Source of the DNA: Candidatus Omnitrophota bacterium | Lineage (GTDB): Bacteria; Omnitrophota; Gorgyraeia; B26-G9 | Reading direction: 5' to 3' | Length of the DNA stretch: 36,536 nucleotides | NCBI GenBank assembly: GCA_023819605.1 | Contig: JAMWCB010000003.1 | Location: forward strand, 1 to 36,536 | Shown here: positions 11,183 through 22,911 of the stretch, in pieces | Numbering within the stretch: the first letter of the stretch is position 1 | How the letters are laid out: each line of letters starts with the position of its first letter | Made by a program: the position numbers and the translations under genes | The notes under the pieces: generated by a model | What the model was told of the DNA's origin: nothing | What the model saw: the letters and a program-made list of their open reading frames with translations, nothing else | Databases searched by the model: none

Positions 11183-11653
11183 TCAGATTATTTTTTTTGA
11201 AAAAATCAACAAATCATCGTGCGCGCTGTAAAAACCGGAAATGCGGCCGACCAGCGCATAACCGTTTTTCTCGTAGAGCTTACAAGCCGGACCATATTCC
11301 GCGCGCGAAGACGTTTCAATGCGCACCACGGATTGCTGCGCGAAGAGTTGTTCGCGCATATGCGCTTCCGCCTGAGCGATCAAGCGCGTACCGATACCGC
11401 GGCTCTGGATTTTTTTATCGACAACCACCCAATAAATATCCCAGGCTGCCGCCGTCAAGGGAGTGCGGCCATAAAGAATAAATCCGGCCGTGCGGCCGTC
11501 CACCGCTTCTTCCCGGTAAAAATATTTTTTTTCGCCGTTATTCCGGTAATCTTCCAGGATTTCCCGCAATATATCCGTCTCATGCGCGCCGAAGACGCCG
11601 GTTTCCTGCGCCATTTTTACCAAAGCAAAAATTTTCGCTTCATCGATGAGCAC
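11183..11653 (-). CDS. GNAT family N-acetyltransferase
   Basis: 156 residues in the Gcn5-related fold. The acetyl-CoA pyrophosphate loop is VDKKIQSRGIGTRLIAQAE (Q/R-x-x-G-x-G-x-x), the C-terminal part GPACKLYEKNGYALVGRISGFY is the usual beta5-alpha4-beta6 region. The frame extends upstream inside the ligase gene; a GTG at 11653 (VLIDEAKIF) overlapping the ligase stop by 14 nt is the most economical start. It follows lysine 2,3-aminomutase and two ATP-grasp ligases. AblB of the N-epsilon-acetyl-beta-lysine pathway is also a GNAT enzyme, so acetylation of a beta-lysine-containing product is an attractive inference, not shown by sequence. Confidence 0.8.
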   Translation of the reverse strand: MLIDEAKIFALVKMAQETGVFGAHETDILREILEDYRNNGEKKYFYREEAVDGRTAGFILYGRTPLTAAAWDIYWVVVDKKIQSRGIGTRLIAQAEAHMREQLFAQQSVVRIETSSRAEYGPACKLYEKNGYALVGRISGFYSAHDDLLIFSKKII

Positions 11654-12641
11654 CGCACACCGCCTGTTCAATAATTTTTTGAATGACCTCCGTAAATAAC
11701 CATCCCCGCGCGGCCGCCTGCCGCATAAAACCGCTGTCGTCGTTGATATCCGGATTGGGATTGACGTCGATGACCGCCAGCTCGCCGCCCCGCGCGCGCA
11801 GATCAACCCGGCAATACCCGCGGCAGCCCAACGCCTGCGCCGCCGCAGCGGCAAACCGCCCGATACGCTGCCGCGCCGCCGTTGGGATATCCGCCTGCGG
11901 CGAAGGCGTCAGCTTTCGATATTCCACACTGGCCGTATCCCATTTCGCGGCGTAGGTAAAAAACGGCCGGCATTGCGGCGCCGCCGCGAAATCCATCACC
12001 GAAATTCCCACCTGCTCGTACGGCGCGCTGCCGAGCAACCCGACGTTATACTCCACCCCGTCAAAAAATTCCTCCACGATCAAGCCGGCCGGGTGATTTT
12101 TTAATTTTTTTTCGATGCCGGCGCGGGCGGATTGCCGGTCGCCGGCCCATGATTCCGCGTCAATCCCGACGCTGCCGTCTTCGGCGCCGGGTTTGATAAA
12201 TAACGGGTACCGTAATTGCGTATCGCTAAACTCATCCAACCGCCGGACCAGCACGCCGGCGGGAACCGGGATACCCTGCCGGCGAAGCTCCTCTTTTGCC
12301 TGATGTTTCTGCAGGCACACTGCTAATGCGGCGGAACCGTTGCCGGTAAACGGAATCCGTGTTTCTTCCAGGAGGCGCGCAAAAACGACTTCCTGGCCGG
12401 AATCATCGCAAAACCCTTCAAAGAGATTAAAAATACACAGCGGCGAATTTTGCCGCAACCGAGCAACCAGCGACGCGCCGTTTTCTTTCAGATCATGCAC
12501 GCGCACGGCAAACAGCTCGGCGGCATACCCGCGCTGCCGCGCGGCGTCCAGCACATTGCGGGCGCAGCGCAGCGCGTCCGCCGTATCCGGACGAAATGCT
12601 TGCTCTTCGGCAACCGTGACTAAAAGCTTTTTCTTGTTCAT
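11640..12641 (-). CDS. ATP-grasp ligase, D-alanine-D-alanine ligase-like (second copy in operon)
   Basis: 333 residues with the three parts of the D-Ala-D-Ala ligase fold: N-terminal Rossmann-like part (PLCIFNLFEGF about 88-98), central ATP-grasp part (LFIKPGAEDGSVGID about 145-160, LIVEEFFDG about 190-198) and C-terminal magnesium site (VIDVNPNPDINDDSGF, the E/D-x-N-x-x-P signature). Such enzymes form an amide bond through an acyl phosphate. Its ATG overlaps the stop of the preceding ligase gene (ATGA), so the pair is translationally coupled. Because the two paralogues differ greatly and sit with KamA, dipeptide ligation outside peptidoglycan synthesis is more likely than a housekeeping Ddl role. 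Confidence 0.85.
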   Translation of the reverse strand: MNKKKLLVTVAEEQAFRPDTADALRCARNVLDAARQRGYAAELFAVRVHDLKENGASLVARLRQNSPLCIFNLFEGFCDDSGQEVVFARLLEETRIPFTGNGSAALAVCLQKHQAKEELRRQGIPVPAGVLVRRLDEFSDTQLRYPLFIKPGAEDGSVGIDAESWAGDRQSARAGIEKKLKNHPAGLIVEEFFDGVEYNVGLLGSAPYEQVGISVMDFAAAPQCRPFFTYAAKWDTASVEYRKLTPSPQADIPTAARQRIGRFAAAAAQALGCRGYCRVDLRARGGELAVIDVNPNPDINDDSGFMRQAAARGWLFTEVIQKIIEQAVCGAHR

Positions 12642-13648
12642 GACCGCGCACAGCCGCAGCGAGCCAAGGAAAGCGCGAGCAATTCCTGCACAAAAACGCT
12701 GAAATCACGCCGGTGCAAGCCGCACATAAGCATCAAATCGCTATAGTTGGGGGAAAGCCCGGGCAACGGATTGATGTCGATAATTTTCGGAACGCCGGCG
12801 GCATCCAGACGAAAATCGATCCGGGCGATATCCTTAAGTTCCAACGCGCGGAACGCTGCCTGCGCGAACGCCTTGATCATCTGCGTTGTTTCGCGGGGCA
12901 AAATTTCCTCGGCCTTTTCATATTTTATTTTTTCCTGCCACGCGCGTTTATGTTCCAACGAATAGACAAAAAATGCGTTCGCGGTATGCCGCGGCGAAAT
13001 CCGCATCATGCCCACAATCATCGGCTCGGCATTGCCATACACCCCGACCGTCACTTCATCGCCGGGAAGAAATTCCTCGATCAGCGCCGGCTGGCCGTAC
13101 TGCTCCCGGATAAACGCCGTTTTTTTTTCGATGGCGGAATAGTCTGCCGCGACCGAATCCGAAAAAATCCCTTTCGACGATCCCTCCCAGCGGGGCTTGA
13201 CGATAAACCGTCTGCCGTCAAAACCGGCGGCCTGCCGTTTAAGATCGGCCGGCCCGGCAGCCATAACCATATCCGGCACCGGCACACCGGCGTGCTTAAG
13301 CATGACATTGGCCAGATATTTATCGAGGGCTATTCCCAAGGCAATCGCGTCGGAACCGAAGTAAGGTATCTGCAGCCATTCCAGAAGACAGGGGATTTGC
13401 GACTCCCGGCCGCGCGTTTTTCCGCGGCCTTCGGCAATATTCAAAACGAATTCCGGCTTTTCGCTGCGCAGGCGCGCGAACACCGTTTCATCCTGTTCCA
13501 GCCGGACCGCGGTATATCCCATTTTTTCAATTTGCCGCTGGAGGAATTCTATGGTTTCTATTTCGTCGTATTCCTCGTCGCAATCGCCGCCGGAATGTTC
13601 GCGGCGCAAATTATAGGTGATCCCGATACGGCGGATCTGTTTATTCAC
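12638..13648 (-). CDS. ATP-grasp ligase, D-alanine-D-alanine ligase-like (first copy in operon)
   Basis: 336 residues, GTG start at 13648 behind GGGAGG. The N-terminal part has PEFVLNIAEGRGKTRGRESQ, matching the Ddl VFNxxxG region; the ATP-grasp part has FIVKPRWEGSSKGIF and ALIEEFLPGDEVTVGVYG; the C-terminal metal site is KIIDINPLPGLSPNYSDL. It is clearly an ATP-dependent carboxylate-amine ligase. It shares only motif-level similarity with its downstream neighbour, so the two probably handle different substrates. The acidic N-terminus (GGDCDEEYDEIE) is unusual for housekeeping Ddl. Most likely it joins beta-lysine or a derivative to another amino acid, which is inference from context. Confidence 0.85.
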   Translation of the reverse strand: MNKQIRRIGITYNLRREHSGGDCDEEYDEIETIEFLQRQIEKMGYTAVRLEQDETVFARLRSEKPEFVLNIAEGRGKTRGRESQIPCLLEWLQIPYFGSDAIALGIALDKYLANVMLKHAGVPVPDMVMAAGPADLKRQAAGFDGRRFIVKPRWEGSSKGIFSDSVAADYSAIEKKTAFIREQYGQPALIEEFLPGDEVTVGVYGNAEPMIVGMMRISPRHTANAFFVYSLEHKRAWQEKIKYEKAEEILPRETTQMIKAFAQAAFRALELKDIARIDFRLDAAGVPKIIDINPLPGLSPNYSDLMLMCGLHRRDFSVFVQELLALSLARCGCARS

Positions 13649-13671
13649 CGGCTGCCTCCCTGATTCAGATG

Positions 13672-13700
13672 AAAGGGGAATGTCTCAGACATTCCCCTTT
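13672..13700 (-). promoter_or_regulatory. 13-bp perfect hairpin between kamA and the first ligase gene
   Basis: AAAGGGGAATGTC and GACATTCCCCTTT are perfect inverted repeats with a 3-base loop. On the minus strand it lies after the KamA stop and about 25 nt before the ligase ribosome site. Only three T residues follow the stem, so it is a poor intrinsic terminator; an attenuator, mRNA-stability or processing element is more likely. Confidence 0.6.
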
Positions 13701-13729
13701 ACCTGCACACGAATCCTCATACGGCGTTC

Positions 13730-14899
13730 TTATCCCTGAGGATTATAGTACTGGATCACCTCATTTTTATAATTACGCAGGGTAACCTGATCTTTGGCCA
13801 GGGAGATCAGATAATTCGGCCCCAGCGGAATCTTGCCTTTGCCTTCGGTGCCGTCAACCACGAACGTCGGGATGCACATACCGCTGGTATGCCCGCGCAG
13901 CTTTTCGATAATCTCAATGCCCTGGTACACGGACGTGCGGAAGTGATTGGCCCCGACCACCGGGTCGCACTGATACAAATAATACGGCCGCACGCGAATG
14001 GCCTGCAGCTTCTGCATGAGCTGTTTCATGACGTCCGGATTGTCGTTGACGCCTTTAAGCAGCACCGCCTGGTTGCTCAACGGAATACCGCAACGCTGCA
14101 GTTTCCGGCAGGCTTCCGCCGCCTGCGGCGTGACTTCCGCCGGATGGTTAAACTGCACATTGATCCAGAGATTTTCATATTTTTCCAGGATACGGCAGAG
14201 CATGGCATCGATCCGCTGCGGATTGACCACCGGCGTGCGCGTGCCGATGCGCATGACTTCTACGCTTTTAATCTGCCGGATTGCCGAAAGAATATAATCC
14301 AAGCGTTCCGAATGCAGCGTCAACGGATCTCCGCCGGAGACAATAATTTCCCGGATCTGCGGCTTATCTTTGACATAGCGCAGCGCCTGATCGATTTCGC
14401 GCAGCGACGGCTCGGCATTTTTCGCTTTCCACAAACGCTTGCGGGTGCAATGCCGGCAATACATGAAACACCGCCCGGTAACCAAAAGCAGCGCCCGATC
14501 CGGATAACGATGGACCAGAAACGGCGTCACCGATGTTTTCTCTTCCGCCAACGGATCCATCGTTTCATGCTCGTTCTCCCGGATTTCCTCCAGGGACGGA
14601 ACGCATTGCCGGCGAATCGGGTCATGCGGATCCATAACATCTTTGATCAACGACAGATAATACGGCGTAATCAGCATTTGGTACGATTTTATCACCTGCT
14701 TGAGCGCGATTTTTACCTGTTCATTTAACGGGAGATACTTGGCAAGTGCTTCGATACTGGCGATAGGATGCCGAACTTCTTGGGTGGACGAAGGTATTTC
14801 TTTTAGGCAAAGCTTCGTACTCGGAGGCTCTTCAAAGTTAGGCTCCGGAGGTTCCTCTGACTTCTGTTCTGTTTTTTTCACCAACTTTTCATTTTCCAC
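13730..14899 (-). CDS. kamA: L-lysine 2,3-aminomutase (radical SAM, PLP)
   Basis: 389 residues, GTG start at 14899 behind AAGGAG. The radical SAM cluster motif is C144-F-M-Y-C148-R-H-C151. SGGDPLTL is the SAM-binding GGE/GGD motif. Near the C-terminus, GKGKIPLGPNY holds the PLP lysine. Two aspartates that, as I recall, bind the lysine epsilon-amino group in clostridial KamA are kept (QCDPVVG and VVDGTEG), which favours lysine over glutamate as substrate. It converts L-lysine to L-beta-lysine in the cytoplasm. The first 40 residues are an acidic proline-rich tail (EEPPEPNFEEPPS) not typical of the family. It leads an operon with two ATP-grasp ligases and a GNAT enzyme; its strong own promoter lies 57 nt upstream. 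Confidence 0.92.
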   Translation of the reverse strand: MENEKLVKKTEQKSEEPPEPNFEEPPSTKLCLKEIPSSTQEVRHPIASIEALAKYLPLNEQVKIALKQVIKSYQMLITPYYLSLIKDVMDPHDPIRRQCVPSLEEIRENEHETMDPLAEEKTSVTPFLVHRYPDRALLLVTGRCFMYCRHCTRKRLWKAKNAEPSLREIDQALRYVKDKPQIREIIVSGGDPLTLHSERLDYILSAIRQIKSVEVMRIGTRTPVVNPQRIDAMLCRILEKYENLWINVQFNHPAEVTPQAAEACRKLQRCGIPLSNQAVLLKGVNDNPDVMKQLMQKLQAIRVRPYYLYQCDPVVGANHFRTSVYQGIEIIEKLRGHTSGMCIPTFVVDGTEGKGKIPLGPNYLISLAKDQVTLRNYKNEVIQYYNPQG

Positions 14900-17793: not shown

Positions 17794-19005
17794 TCACAAC
17801 CGTACTACGTCGTTTTCATAATACATGGACAAGAACAGCAAGAGGTAATCCCGCACATGACGGGTCAAGAGAAAATTATTCCGCACATGCTCGCGCCCGT
17901 TTTTTCCCAACTGTTGCGCATAGGCCGGACTATTCAGCAACTGCTTTACGGCAAACGCCGCGCCTTCGATGGAATGGCAGAGCAGCCCGGAATATTTATG
18001 GGTAATCTGCAAGGGAATACCGCCGACCGCCGATGCGACGACCGGCTTGCCTTTCCAGAGGGCTTCCGAAACGGTAAGCCCGAAACCTTCCTTGAGGGAT
18101 TTTTGCATAATCACATCCGAAGCCCGCTGCAGCGCGTTAATTAATAAATCATCCTGCGGCAACAGGAGAATATGTATATCCGGATCCTTGCCCGCCTGTT
18201 CGCGGACTTCCGCCAAGACTTCCAATCCTTCCGGATCGTCGGCGGCAGTGCCGCCGGCCAAAATCAATTGACAGTCGATATGCTTTTTTACCAACTGATA
18301 AACCTTGAGGACTCCCAGCGGATCTTTTAACCGGTCGAAGCGGGAAATTTGGGTAATGATCGGTTTGTCCCGCACAAGACCGTGCTGCCGGATCATCCGT
18401 TCGACGGTTTCTTCCGGCAACTCACGATTTTTATCGCTCAACGGGTCTATGGACGGCGTAATCAAAAACTGCCGGATCGGCAGCGGCCGGGAAAACGACG
18501 GCGAAGAAAACACGCAGCCGTCGTACCGGCGGATAAATCCCATGAGAAACTGCCATACCCCGTCGTCCGGATGCGACACGTCCACATGGCAGCGCCAAAT
18601 CCATTTATTCGACTGTTTTTTTTCAACGAGCATGATCGGCTGGGGATCGTGGATAAACACCACATCGCCGTAAATATTCAACGCGGCGTTATTTTTTCTG
18701 CCGGTATCCAGAAAAATATCGAAATCATCGCGCGTGATCACTTCCGCGCGCCCGTGCAGCGCGTTATGAAATTTCTTCGTCACGCCGAAAAACTGCTCGC
18801 CGCCTTTAATCACGTCCCAACCCGCGCGCACACCCAATTCCTGCAGCAACGGCACCATGCGGTTTAAAATCTCCGCTACGCCGCCGCCCACGGCGGTCGA
18901 ATTGACATTCTGAACCGCCTTGCCGTCGAGCCGTTCGCCCAACCGGCGCAAATCATCGATCACCGCCTGCCCGACAATCGGGACATATTCCGTTAAGTGC
19001 GCCAT
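17794..19005 (-). CDS. treT: Trehalose synthase TreT-type glycosyltransferase (GT4)
   Basis: 403 residues of GT-B fold. The N-terminal part has VQNVNSTAVGGGVAEIL, the TreT signature, and the C-terminal nucleotide-sugar site has KSLKEGFGLTVSEALWKGKPVV (E-x7-E). TreT joins NDP-glucose and glucose to trehalose, reversibly. The ATG at 19005 follows GAGGTGACCG and lies 3 bases after the preceding stop. It is the last gene of a coupled operon that also encodes a GT20 synthase and OtsB-type phosphatase, so two routes to trehalose, or to related glucosides, are encoded together. An alternative is that it makes or breaks another glucoside; the TreT motif argues for trehalose. Confidence 0.87.
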   Translation of the reverse strand: MAHLTEYVPIVGQAVIDDLRRLGERLDGKAVQNVNSTAVGGGVAEILNRMVPLLQELGVRAGWDVIKGGEQFFGVTKKFHNALHGRAEVITRDDFDIFLDTGRKNNAALNIYGDVVFIHDPQPIMLVEKKQSNKWIWRCHVDVSHPDDGVWQFLMGFIRRYDGCVFSSPSFSRPLPIRQFLITPSIDPLSDKNRELPEETVERMIRQHGLVRDKPIITQISRFDRLKDPLGVLKVYQLVKKHIDCQLILAGGTAADDPEGLEVLAEVREQAGKDPDIHILLLPQDDLLINALQRASDVIMQKSLKEGFGLTVSEALWKGKPVVASAVGGIPLQITHKYSGLLCHSIEGAAFAVKQLLNSPAYAQQLGKNGREHVRNNFLLTRHVRDYLLLFLSMYYENDVVRL

Positions 19006-19008
19006 CGG

Positions 19009-19671
19009 TCACCTCGCCGTTGTCTTTTGGATTATCTGAAGAATCGCCGCGCGCAACCCGTCCAGCGTGAACGTGTACGGATCTATCCGCGCTATTTTTT
19101 CCGCCGCCTCCGTCTGCCCCAAAGAATCGGCCAGCCAGTTTGAAAAATCGTTATTTCCTTTTTCAAGGCGCAGGCGCGCTTCAAACATATGGAAATAAAT
19201 CACCGGCAGGCTGACCGCCGCCAGTGCCGCGGTAAACTCCGCGAGCGTGCGCGCGAAAATTCCGGTCGGGACAATGAAACTTACGGATTTAATCACCTGA
19301 AACTCTTCCCCGCCGCGGCAGGCGCGCTCGCGAGCCGCCGGATTGCGCCCCAGATAATCTTCCAGGAGAAAAATAAACCGTTCGCGCACCGCGCGAATCG
19401 TCGGATAATCGATAATATTGACGCTGGCCAACTGCTCGGCCAATTCGTCTTCGCCCAACGCTTCCCGCACCCAGTACGCGAAATCATTCGGCGGCTCGGG
19501 CGAAACAAAGAGATGCTGCTGCAAAAACCGGTGCGTGTGATGATACATACACGCGCCCGGAACTTCCCGCAACAGGGCCAACAATTCTCCGGCGGTCGAC
19601 GCTTTCAAGCCGGTCAGTTCCGACAAATTAAACCGCGTGTAAAATTGAAACGGTTCCCGCTCCATATTCAC
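19009..19671 (-). CDS. DUF5752-type protein with internal duplication
   Basis: 220 residues, ATG at 19671 overlapping the OtsB stop (ATGA). I recognise it as the DUF5752 type that accompanies TreT genes; no enzymatic motif is known to me. Two similar halves are visible: residues about 25-108 (GACMYHHTHRF, NDFAYWVREALGEDELAEQLA) and about 136-216 (PVIYFHMFEARL, NDFSNWLADSLGQTEAAEKIA). It is soluble, helical and lacks a signal peptide. Its position between OtsB and TreT suggests a partner or regulator of trehalose synthesis, which is inference. Confidence 0.75.
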   Translation of the reverse strand: MNMEREPFQFYTRFNLSELTGLKASTAGELLALLREVPGACMYHHTHRFLQQHLFVSPEPPNDFAYWVREALGEDELAEQLASVNIIDYPTIRAVRERFIFLLEDYLGRNPAARERACRGGEEFQVIKSVSFIVPTGIFARTLAEFTAALAAVSLPVIYFHMFEARLRLEKGNNDFSNWLADSLGQTEAAEKIARIDPYTFTLDGLRAAILQIIQKTTAR

Positions 19672-20468
19672 CTCCGCATCGTTTCGCGCGCAAACATACG
19701 CAGCACTTCGATAACCTCCGCCTGCGTCTCAACGCAATACTGCGCCCCGGATCTTTTCTGCCGGCCGACGACAATTCCGACATCGCTTTCCCGCAAAATC
19801 CGGAACACGTCCTCGTCGGTGCGATCATCGCCGATATAGACCGCCACCCGCTCCCGCGGCGGTATCCCGCTCTGCCGCCACAGCCATCGCACCGCGTGCC
19901 CTTTATTCCAGGGGCGCGCCGGCCGCGCCTCCCGGACCAACGCGCCTTCGAGCGTTTCCAGCATTCCCTGTTCCCGCCACGGCCGAATACAGTGCTGGAA
20001 ACAGGATCTCACCGTACGCCGCCGCTGTGCCGCAACCGCGCGGTAGTGGAGCGCCACGGAAAACAGCTTGCCCTCGATCAACACGCCGGGAATATCGGCG
20101 CACACCCGCCGCAAACACCGTTCTACCGCAACCAGCGCCTGCGCGATTGCCGGCGATAATTTCCGCGTATAAGCGCCCTGCGGGGTCTGAATACACCAGC
20201 CGTGATCGCCGGCATAGGAAATATCCGGGATCGCCACCCGGCGGCGCAAATCCGCCAATGGCCGGCCGCTGACCACCGCGAGGCGGACGCGCGGCAACGC
20301 CGCGCACTGCCGCAGCACGCGACGCACCGCCGGCGCTAACCGCGCCTGTTCCGGCCGCGCGGCAAACGGCGCCAGCGTGCCGTCATAATCCACACCAAGC
20401 ATCACCTGCCGCCCGGCCAGTTTCCGACAAATCTCCGCTTGCGCGCGCCGGAAATCTTGAGGCATCAT
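19668..20468 (-). CDS. otsB: Trehalose-6-phosphate phosphatase (HAD family)
   Basis: 266 residues. HAD motif I is VDYDGTLAPF (about 26-35), motif II VVSGRPL, motif III lysine in PWNKGHAVRWL, and motif IV IGDDRTDEDVF. The cap region is of the OtsB/HAD-IIB type. It removes phosphate from the sugar phosphate made by the GT20 enzyme encoded just upstream. The ATG at 20468 overlaps the upstream stop (ATGA), and its own stop overlaps the DUF5752 start, so three genes are translationally coupled. Confidence 0.9.
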   Translation of the reverse strand: MMPQDFRRAQAEICRKLAGRQVMLGVDYDGTLAPFAARPEQARLAPAVRRVLRQCAALPRVRLAVVSGRPLADLRRRVAIPDISYAGDHGWCIQTPQGAYTRKLSPAIAQALVAVERCLRRVCADIPGVLIEGKLFSVALHYRAVAAQRRRTVRSCFQHCIRPWREQGMLETLEGALVREARPARPWNKGHAVRWLWRQSGIPPRERVAVYIGDDRTDEDVFRILRESDVGIVVGRQKRSGAQYCVETQAEVIEVLRMFARETMRR

Positions 20469-22708
20469 GCGTCCCGTTTCAAAGCCATTAATTCATTAAA
20501 AATCGTCCCGGCCCAGCGGAAAATATTATTCTCTTTGACCAGCGCGCGCATCCGTTCCATACGGCGCTGTTTTTCCTCCACCGGCATCACGATCGCCTGG
20601 TGCACCCCCTGCGCAAATTCTTCGATCGAATAGGGGTTGATCTGCACCGCATCGGTCAATTCACGCGCCGCGCCGGTAAACTTACTGAGCACGAGCATAC
20701 CGTTCAAATCATCTTTTGCCGTCACGTATTCTTTAGCCACCAAATTCATGCCGTCATGCAGCGAACTGACGATGCAGATATCGCCAACCTGATAATAAGG
20801 CAATATCTCGTCCTGGGAAAAATGATGTTTAAGATAGATGATCGGTTTCCACGTTCCGTCGGAATAATTCCAGTTTATTTTCTCGACCAGCTCATCCAGT
20901 TCGCCGAGCAGGTCGTGATAGCGTTTAATATGGGTGCGGCTGGGCGCCGCCAACTGCAACAATACGAATTTTCCCCGGTACTCCGGATAGCGGGTCAATA
21001 AACGGTCAACGGCAAGCATTCGTTCGTTCAATCCTTTCGTATAATCGATACGGTCGACGCCGACCGCGACAATTTTACCCTCCAGCGAAAATTCTTCGCG
21101 CAGCCGGCGTACGCCGCCGCTCACCGCCGGCTGCCCACGTTCGGAACCGGCAACGGCCACGCTGATCGGAAACGGACGGACAAGGGTTTCGTGCCCGGCG
21201 CAATGCACGCTGAATTTTTCCGTATCGATCCGCGATTCTAAAAAACGGTTGGCGGTTTCCAAAAAATTATTACAATGGAACTGCAAATGAAATCCGATCA
21301 AATCGCAGCCGAGCATGCCGTCTAATATTTCCTGCTGATAGGGGCAAATCGCGAACACTTCCGGATTCGGCCAGGGGATATGCCAAAACAGAGCGACCGT
21401 CACGTCCGGCCGCCGCGCTTTAATCATCCGCGGCAAGAGCGTGAAATGATAATCCTGAATAAACACGAACGCATGCCCATCCTGCGGCAGTTCTTCGAGC
21501 AGAGCGTCGGCAAAACGCTGGTTAACTTTTTGATACATCTGCCAATCGGCACTGCGGAACAGCGGCCGCGTATGCGTAATATGACAGAGCGGCCACAGCC
21601 CTTCATTGGCAAATCCGTAGTAATATCCCTGCTCTTCCGCTTTCGAAAGCCAGACGCGTTTGAGCACGTAGCGGATATCTTCCGGCGGCACGCCCACCTT
21701 ATCTTTGGCATTGACAAAAGCGCGATCCGCGCTGCCGCTGCCGTGCGCCAGCCACATACCGCCGCAGGCGCGCAAAATCGGGTCAAGCGCGGTCACGACC
21801 CCGCTGGCCGGACGCACGCATACCGGACGGTTCGTCTGCTGATTCACGATATGCATATAAGGCTCGCGGTTGGACACCGCGAAAAACCCGTGGTCGCCGA
21901 GTTTAGCCACGACGATATCCCGCAATTTTTTCTCCGTCCATAATTCCGTGTTTTCCAGCCGCGCCGACGCGGTGTCCGCAACCGCCCGCCGCGCGACCCG
22001 CAAACTCAGCGCAACCTGTTCCACTTCTCCGGCCAACGCCCGCATCTCATCAGCGCCTTTAATCGACGAAAACGCGCTGGTTTCTCCGCGATGAAACCGG
22101 CGGAACCAATCGGTCAGCTGCCGCAGCGGAAAAATAAACAGCCGCCACTGCATGAGCACGCTCACGCAAAACAGCAGAATAACCAGCACGATTACCGGCA
22201 TACCGATGCGCTCCCAGAGCTGCGCTAAACGAAAAAAGACATAGGAGGTATCATAGACTACTTCCACCATGCCTAAGCGGCGGCCGGCAGCATCACTGAC
22301 CGGTAGGCGGTATCGGTACAGCACATACTCCTGATACCGTTCCAGCGAAGTAGCCGCGCCTGACTCCACCGATTCCGGAAGAGGCATGGCCGGCGAAAAT
22401 TGTTCCTGGAGGAAAGCAATCCGCCGAGTTATGGCGAAAATCTTGCCGGCTTCATCATACAGAACGCAGCCCTGAAAATTTTTCCGCGTTTCAAACCGCT
22501 CGACCAGCCGCTGCGCTGCCGGAACATCCCGCTGCGCCAGCACATACTGCGCGGACACTTCCAGGCTTTCCGCCACCGCGCGCGCTTTCCGCTGCAACTC
22601 GTCGAGCAGGCGGTTTTCTTCCCGGCGGACGTTCCAAATCCCGTAACCGATCAGAACCGCGCACACCACGATGAGAATGGGCAAAAAGAAAAGAATTAAG
22701 CGTTTCAA
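20465..22708 (-). CDS. otsA: Membrane-anchored HAMP-trehalose-6-phosphate synthase (GT20)
   Basis: 747 residues from a TTG at 22708 behind GGGGAGG; a GTG at 22735 would add nine residues but lacks a ribosome site. The N-terminus holds a membrane segment ([21 protein letters not shown]), an extracytoplasmic part of about 140 residues, a second membrane segment ([17 protein letters not shown]) and a HAMP-like linker ([16 protein letters not shown]). The catalytic GT20 domain fills about 270-745: [25 protein letters not shown], and [14 protein letters not shown] are the OtsA signatures. The loop [14 protein letters not shown] replaces the usual GG-x-W-x-G-W-x-G, so the product may be trehalose-6-phosphate or a related glucoside phosphate. 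The layout of a sensor-like module fused to a synthase suggests direct response to envelope or osmotic state. Confidence 0.9.
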
Positions 22709-22798: not shown

Positions 22799-22831
22799 AA
22801 AAAAACGCCATCCGGATAATTACGGATGGCG
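22799..22831 (-). terminator. Intrinsic terminator between the IMPase gene and the GT20 gene
   Basis: CGCCATCCG and CGGATGGCG (9 perfect pairs, 8-base loop) followed by T7 on the minus strand. It is the natural end of the GroES-to-IMPase operon, but also lies downstream of the best promoter for the trehalose operon, so it may serve as an attenuator. Confidence 0.85.
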
Positions 22832-22851
22832 GCCCGACCATCGACAATGCC

Positions 22852-22871
22852 TCCGAAGCGGTTGCTTCGGA
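22852..22871 (-). promoter_or_regulatory. Leader hairpin upstream of the trehalose operon terminator
   Basis: TCCGAAGC GGTT GCTTCGGA on the plus strand, an 8-bp perfect stem with a 4-base loop. It is the first structure in the predicted trehalose operon leader, about 20 nt before the terminator stem. It could be part of an anti-terminator or sensor fold. Confidence 0.5.
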
Positions 22872-22883
22872 CCCTTAATTTTT

Positions 22884-22911
22884 AGTATAACGCCGCTCAA
22901 CAAGATGTCAA
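22884..22911 (-). promoter_or_regulatory. Promoter of the trehalose operon (TTGACA-16-TATACT)
   Basis: On the minus strand TTGACA (22906-22911) and TATACT (22884-22889) have a 16-base spacer. The -35 box overlaps the stop codon of the IMPase gene. Predicted transcription start is near 22877, giving a leader of about 170 nt that contains a hairpin and an intrinsic terminator. Confidence 0.7.

Follow-up and report, generated by a model that had tools for sequence, protein, structure and literature searches.

The trehalose operon and its genes

The window, a 36,536 nucleotide stretch of contig JAMWCB010000003.1 from a Candidatus Omnitrophota bacterium, encodes on its minus strand a 747 amino acid protein (20465..22708) in which a predicted trehalose-6-phosphate synthase domain of the GT20 family is preceded by a membrane module of the Cache-HAMP type. 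The gene starts with a TTG codon at 22708, which is preceded by a strong Shine-Dalgarno sequence (AGGGGAGG) and corresponds to the M1 position of its relatives in the family alignment, and ends with a stop codon at 20465. The initial annotation had placed a synthase of this kind, fused to a receptor-like membrane and HAMP module, in the same interval, and both the interval and the composition were recovered here, with two transmembrane segments, a Cache-like domain, a HAMP-like unit and a GT20 domain (PF00982; Bitscore: 397.7-399.5; gathering cut-off: 32.5; e-value: 9e-119). The open reading frame runs on the minus strand, and a plus-strand reading of the interval was rejected on account of its many stop codons. 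A profile search of the genome identified this as its only GT20 gene.

The fusion gene heads a four-gene operon. It is followed on the minus strand by genes encoding an OtsB-type trehalose-6-phosphate phosphatase (19668..20468; PDB trehalose-6-phosphate phosphatases; e-value: 4e-33), which passes the NCBIfam trehalose-phosphatase cut-off (TIGR00685; Bitscore: 142.7; cut-off: 68.05), a DUF5752 protein homologous to OrfY (19009..19671; PF19027; e-value: 1.6e-62; 4cso_A; e-value: 1e-28 over nearly the whole length), and a TreT-like trehalose glycosyltransferring synthase of family GT4 (17794..19005; PF21269; e-value: 5.5e-52; 6zj4; e-value: 1.5e-119; 2x6q; e-value: 4.5e-99). The phosphatase start overlaps the GT20 stop, the phosphatase and DUF5752 genes likewise overlap, and the TreT gene begins a few bases after the DUF5752 gene.

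Of the last two operon genes, one is thus homologous to the crystallised OrfY of Thermoproteus tenax, whose PDB entry (4CSO) labels it a transcription factor, and the other to TreT (6ZJ4, 2X6Q); in Thermoproteus, orfY and treT form an operon. Unlike an OrfY-TreT pair on its own, the pair in the window is joined downstream of OtsA/OtsB-type genes, and in a bacterium. In most loci of the relatives the phosphatase gene adjoins the GT20 gene, and in many the DUF5752-TreT pair then follows. Across 58 related genomes the DUF5752 gene adjoins treT in 30 of 31 cases, the 31st being cut by a contig end, and this adjacency also holds where the GT20 gene is missing, so that OrfY-TreT is an independent module, here attached to the synthase and phosphatase genes. 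Our literature search retrieved no paper on DUF5752 by name and none pairing OrfY with TreT. In the relative G008, the TreT reading frame is split over two frames (L054 12004-12892), reflecting either a frameshift or a sequencing error.

Architecture of the Cache-HAMP-GT20 protein

The N-terminal module comprises a first transmembrane segment (residues 4-22; 22643..22699; Kyte-Doolittle peak 2.96), which is retained in the Cache-type relatives, an extracytoplasmic single-Cache-like domain (residues 31-150; 22259..22618), a second transmembrane segment (residues 168-186; 22151..22207; Kyte-Doolittle peak 2.95) and, after it, a HAMP-like unit (residues 194-237; 21998..22129), all on the minus strand, and is followed by the GT20 catalytic domain (20489..21883, minus strand). 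The Cache-like domain matches the Pfam sCache_3_2 model just below the cut-off (Bitscore: 25.5; cut-off: 28.4; e-value: 1.6e-5), and matches to this model are found in 29 of the 51 family members. A profile built from the 51 sequences furthermore matches the Cache domains of WalK in the PDB (5is1/4ywz/7dud; e-values: 6.6e-5 to 1.3e-3). The HAMP-like unit was identified from the family alignment, Pfam and the family profile. The HAMP model (PF00672) scores below its cut-off in this protein (Bitscore: 14.3-14.5; cut-off: 25; e-value: 0.05) and the unit is recognized at the level of the family: HAMP matches with e-values of 0.1 or lower occur in 25/51 members (best e-value: 2.6e-5), and the family profile aligns with solved HAMP units, including Tsr-type receptors across the TM2-HAMP region (e-value: 1.3e-4) and the HAMP unit of AF1503 (e-values: 0.04-0.08). 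P194, W201, G208, L225 and E228 are invariant in the 51-sequence alignment. An AlphaFold model of the protein, built from a two-row alignment, had a mean pLDDT of 39.8 and was too poor to be of use.

Among close pairs with computable dS, dN/dS values of about 0.02-0.11 were obtained for the Cache part, 0.04-0.12 for the TM2-HAMP-linker region and 0.03-0.11 for the GT20 domain. The Cache and HAMP parts are under purifying selection. In the order of its elements (TM-Cache-TM-HAMP) and by profile similarity, the protein resembles chemoreceptors and histidine kinases of the Cache-HAMP type (WalK, Tsr, AF1503); the output domain differs, being a sugar-phosphate glycosyltransferase rather than a kinase, cyclase or signalling domain. 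Known outputs of HAMP units are kinases, cyclases and the signalling domains of chemoreceptors, and a HAMP-GT20 fusion was described in no paper found in our literature search. In our view the family represents a known enzyme in a new architecture rather than an enzyme of a new kind.

The GT20 domain and its predicted substrate

The best solved relatives of the GT20 domain in a PDB search are OtsA enzymes. The domain falls under every NCBIfam equivalog cut-off, among them those of OtsA (TIGR02400; Bitscore: 406.8; curated cut-off: 564.85) and of glucosylglycerol-phosphate synthase (TIGR02398; Bitscore: 311.3; curated cut-off: 569). An altered loop had been noted in the initial annotation, along with a possible change of substrate. 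The loop is present (residues 316-329; 21722..21763, minus strand) and differs from the E. coli GGLWFGWSG sequence, which is replaced by GG-W-AHGS-type sequences in membrane-bound and soluble relatives alike. The same loop type, GTWIAHGGGTADR, is carried by an alphaproteobacterial homologue on an Aminobacter plasmid.

Most OtsA residues mapped to donor and acceptor binding are conserved, namely R9, G22, Y77, W85, D130, H154, R262, K267, R300, D361, N364 and E369, while the position of Y76 is occupied by Y or F. The exceptions are the tryptophan at OtsA position 42 and the first glycine of the GG loop. Trp42 of E. coli OtsA (counted with the initial methionine), corresponding to Trp40 in the numbering of the structural literature, is His in the 747 amino acid protein and His, Gln or Tyr in the clade, and the first glycine is Ser in 53/53 sequences scored as membrane forms. 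The mycobacterial equivalents of the glucose-6-phosphate contact residues were taken from PMC6879718, and Arg384 of the allosteric site of the M. thermoresistibile enzyme (PMC6879718) is replaced by His in nearly all members. A donor assignment from three mycobacterial specificity residues was abandoned, the pattern (L/F/E) being mixed.

The protein hence resembles E. coli and mycobacterial OtsA in its family, in the largely conserved donor and acceptor residues and in the trehalose-6-phosphate phosphatase partner, and differs from OtsA in the N-terminal TM-Cache-TM-HAMP module, in SGV for GGL, in H for W at OtsA position 42 and in a score under the equivalog cut-off; it further differs from mycobacterial OtsA in the histidine at M. 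thermoresistibile R384 (PMC6879718). Because the loop change is a trait of the whole clade, soluble members included, it gives no reason to think that the fusion altered the substrate, and this proposal was rejected. The loop and histidine changes may instead point to altered allostery.

It is conceivable, and in our assessment quite improbable, that the GT20 domain uses another acceptor, such as glycerol-3-phosphate, as in glucosylglycerol-phosphate synthase, with the operon making a different osmolyte. The substitutions at Trp42 and in the GG loop and the score under the OtsA equivalog cut-off would be consistent with this reading, but the OtsA model outscores that of glucosylglycerol-phosphate synthase, and the mapped glucose-6-phosphate contacts R9, D130 and R300, and mostly Y76, are kept (mycobacterial equivalents: PMC6879718). 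The adjoining phosphatase, scoring above the trehalose-phosphatase cut-off, and the adjoining TreT, predicted to make trehalose as well, likewise argue for a trehalose-6-phosphate synthase.

Distribution and evolution of the fusion

Of 376 genomes searched in the same class, 229 returned matches to the fusion protein. No fewer than 82 genes within one class align essentially over the full length at 58-63% identity, and a second set of relatives, with 41-48% identity and the same layout, extends to other classes of the phylum. With 82 or more genes sharing the full architecture at 58-63% identity, and with the low dN/dS values, a chance fusion is excluded, and an assembly artefact was rejected on account of the same recurrence. 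Among eleven relatives searched in the family to which the window belongs, G008 alone contains a near full-length relative, while two others contain a distant, bifunctional TPS-TPP type.

In a tree of 115 GT20 domains the membrane forms all fall within one branch of 74 rows (SH-aLRT: 91), with soluble relatives beside it. Membrane and soluble copies occur together in four genomes (G361, G374, G392 and G411). Eight members of the membrane branch have lost the Cache domain and retain at least one transmembrane segment and the HAMP-like unit; an artefactual origin of the Cache-less forms was rejected for these eight, while in L112 the Cache domain does exist, in a separate upstream open reading frame. 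Loss of the membrane region in homologues, which the initial annotation had named as evidence against its view, is therefore seen in part: the sister clade is soluble, and the eight Cache-less proteins are still membrane forms with a HAMP-like unit. As the Cache domain has been lost in these eight relatives, a periplasmic signal is dispensable in them.

This dispensability makes a plain anchor a real alternative. The N-terminal module would then serve as an anchor and dimerisation scaffold that positions the synthase at the inner membrane without a signalling role, and control would be entirely transcriptional, through the riboswitch described below, or would act through OrfY. Retention of the transmembrane segment and HAMP-like unit in the Cache-less members is compatible with this, as are the MscS-type channels co-encoded in many relatives and the single N-terminal transmembrane segment, lacking a Cache domain, of the alphaproteobacterial homologue. 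Strong purifying selection on the Cache domain where it is present, and a HAMP-like unit with invariant P194 and E228 that would be superfluous in a plain anchor, argue against it, and we consider the anchor unlikely, if the most serious of the alternatives weighed here.

A search of plasmid records returned none covering 80% of the query, and thus no full fusion among them. The Aminobacter plasmid homologue (L132 4791-6608), with its one transmembrane segment and lacking both Cache and HAMP, adjoins genes for an amylo-alpha-1,6-glucosidase and a GT4 protein.

The leader and its nhaA-I riboswitch

The region upstream of the fusion gene harbors, on the minus strand, a σ70-like promoter (22884..22911; TTGACA-16-TATACT; 11/12 matches), an nhaA-I riboswitch aptamer of the Li+-I/Na+-II class (22824..22874; RF03057; Bitscore: 47.4; gathering cut-off: 37), which is the sole Rfam hit in the window, and an intrinsic terminator (22806..22831), the 5′ arm of which shares CGCCATC with the P2 stem of the aptamer, such that the two folds are mutually exclusive. 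In the predicted folds the aptamer alone forms P1 and P2, and with the downstream sequence included, the terminator captures the 3′ strand of P2. By analogy with the characterised members of the class (PMC9646797), from which we infer the ligand and the direction of the switch, this layout predicts an ion-activated transcription switch that is on in the presence of the ion.

In an alignment of 38 nhaA-I RNAs from related genomes, standard pairs occupy 97.6% of the pair cells and 66 cells have changed on both sides, compared to 17.8 in shuffled alignments, while slid aptamer structures drop to 34-61%. The terminator also overlaps P2 in the related-genome RNAs inspected; the leader sequences thus document the exclusive predicted folds and their recurrence across the clade. 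A covariance-model search over the loci of the relatives, in which the window, itself positive, was counted extra, located a riboswitch within 300 nt upstream of 18/55 Cache-type genes and 0/46 soluble or Cache-less genes (Fisher p = 7e-6), and within 1.6 kb upstream of 29/55 and 1/46, respectively (Fisher p = 7e-9), both p-values being inflated by relatedness, since the genomes counted are related to one another and do not provide independent observations. For 27 Cache-type genes the upstream DNA searched, which for some was short, contains no riboswitch.

Overall, nhaA-I RNAs are present in 106/376 genomes of the class, many of them in terminator-bearing forms. Such forms had in 2022 been found only in Deltaproteobacteria (PMC9646797). 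The leader in the window resembles the Na+-II riboswitch of D. propionicus in being a terminator-type "on" platform with an aptamer above the gathering score, and differs from the earlier cases in its lineage and in its linkage to a membrane-fused trehalose-6-phosphate synthase. An occasional linkage of a trehalose-6-phosphate synthase gene with this class was already noted, with Na+ or osmotic control suggested as one option (PMC9646797), and the present data add anatomy to that association.

A cytidine at the position equivalent to nucleotide 54 of the D. propionicus RNA marks the Na+-II type, which responds to Na+ (PMC9646797). In the window, Na+ is favoured by the terminator platform and the context; the uridines conserved in P2, by contrast, are those of the Li+-sensing majority of the class. 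The riboswitch could accordingly answer lithium toxicity instead of Na+ or osmotic stress, with a role for trehalose in Li+ tolerance. Most nhaA-I RNAs tested sense Li+, and Li+ control of trehalose synthesis has been raised before (PMC9646797); the P2 U residues, moreover, are kept in the window aptamer. On the other hand, the characterised terminator-type member senses Na+ (PMC9646797). The nhaA-I-linked genes found here include those for CitMHS-type transporters, MscS and a sodium/hydrogen exchanger; moreover, the usual osmotic signal is Na+. A lithium response appears rather improbable, slightly more so than the plain anchor.

Two nhaA-I riboswitches are located upstream of the Cache-GT20 gene in two further arrangements, namely as a direct tandem in L158 of genome G197 (L158 1501-1683) and separated by a 320 amino acid open reading frame in L140 (3857-5239). 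Other nhaA-I RNAs precede genes for a sodium/hydrogen exchanger, CitMHS-type transporters and an HflK-like protein (L093 9816-10898, L060 12858-14273, L085 1400-2671 and L138 from 5339 onwards); in L085 the transporter gene begins approximately 1 kb downstream of the RNA.

Association with MscS-type channels

In loci with an intervening gene of about 1 kb between the riboswitch and the GT20 gene, this gene often encodes an MscS-type channel, and seven such riboswitch-linked genes were confirmed with Pfam. Among loci with enough upstream DNA, an MscS gene is found directly upstream of the GT20 gene in 14/51 Cache-type and 11/34 soluble loci (25/85). No MscS gene is present in the operon of the window or upstream of it, while two are located elsewhere in the same genome.

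The association recalls the msc-gt-tpsp operon of T. tenax, for which it has been proposed that trehalose is made under stress and released via the channel (PMC3634074). The trehalose genes share with that system the co-operonic GT4 protein and, in the relatives, the MscS-type channel. In T. tenax, however, TPSP is a soluble fusion protein activated by a PimA-like glycosyltransferase (PMC3634074), whereas the window encodes a membrane-fused synthase, a separate phosphatase and a GT4 protein of the TreT type, with no MscS in the operon. Immediately next to the soluble GT20 genes of four loci (L037, L038, L040 and L063) stands a second GT4 gene with distant similarity to TreT, reminiscent of the activating glycosyltransferase of T. 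tenax.

Proposed function and regulation

We consider it probable that the GT20 fusion is the committing enzyme of an osmotic or salt-stress trehalose cassette, held at the membrane, probably gated by its HAMP unit and placed under an ion riboswitch. Transcription would start from the promoter at 22911-22884, and RNA polymerase would stop at the overlapping terminator; an alkali ion (Na+ or Li+), by stabilising the aptamer, would prevent this and switch the operon on. Judging from homology, the GT20 domain would convert NDP-glucose and glucose-6-phosphate to trehalose-6-phosphate, the product of the next gene would dephosphorylate it, and the OrfY/TreT pair would provide a second trehalose route, its regulator, or both. 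The receptor-type TM-Cache-TM-HAMP module would hold the GT20 domain at the inner membrane, where an extracytoplasmic or membrane signal would probably adjust the activity of the synthase through HAMP packing and dimer geometry. That the Cache/HAMP module alters GT20 activity is the least certain element of this scheme. Of the direct envelope or osmotic control put forward in the initial annotation, the osmotic context is well supported by the alkali-ion riboswitch class, the MscS neighbour in relatives and the trehalose cassette, while direct control of activity is only plausible.

More tentatively, and with slightly more doubt than confidence, we propose that an extracytoplasmic Cache/HAMP receptor directly gates compatible-solute synthesis within a single transmembrane sensor-enzyme, layered on a riboswitch of the alkali-ion class that gates transcription. 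Osmotic stress would then be sensed twice, once in the envelope and once in the cytoplasm, and the output of the HAMP unit would be a metabolic enzyme. If the HAMP output is indeed a committing metabolic glycosyltransferase, the logic of transmembrane signalling would extend to direct metabolic control. Together with the riboswitch, the membrane module may couple trehalose production directly to salt stress perceived at the cell surface. The operon would offer a compact and testable model of dual osmotic control by an ion riboswitch and a membrane receptor. The question of why trehalose-6-phosphate synthase is among the genes regulated by Li+/Na+ riboswitches can now be tied to a concrete operon, with its OrfY-TreT pair and, in relatives, MscS.

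Additional genes observed in the window and in related genomes

Giant proteins with trehalose-type glycosyltransferase domains are encoded in several related genomes. A GT20 domain lies within a 7499 amino acid open frame in L035 (G013:C30), and TreT N-terminal domains within frames of 3056-5683 amino acids in G049:C39, G054:C24 and G021:C36. In the window, near the trehalose operon, a row of genes on the minus strand (11183-14899) encodes a lysine-2,3-aminomutase-like protein, two D-Ala-D-Ala-ligase-like ATP-grasp proteins and a GNAT acetyltransferase-like protein, a combination that would possibly yield a β-lysine-derived solute or peptide.
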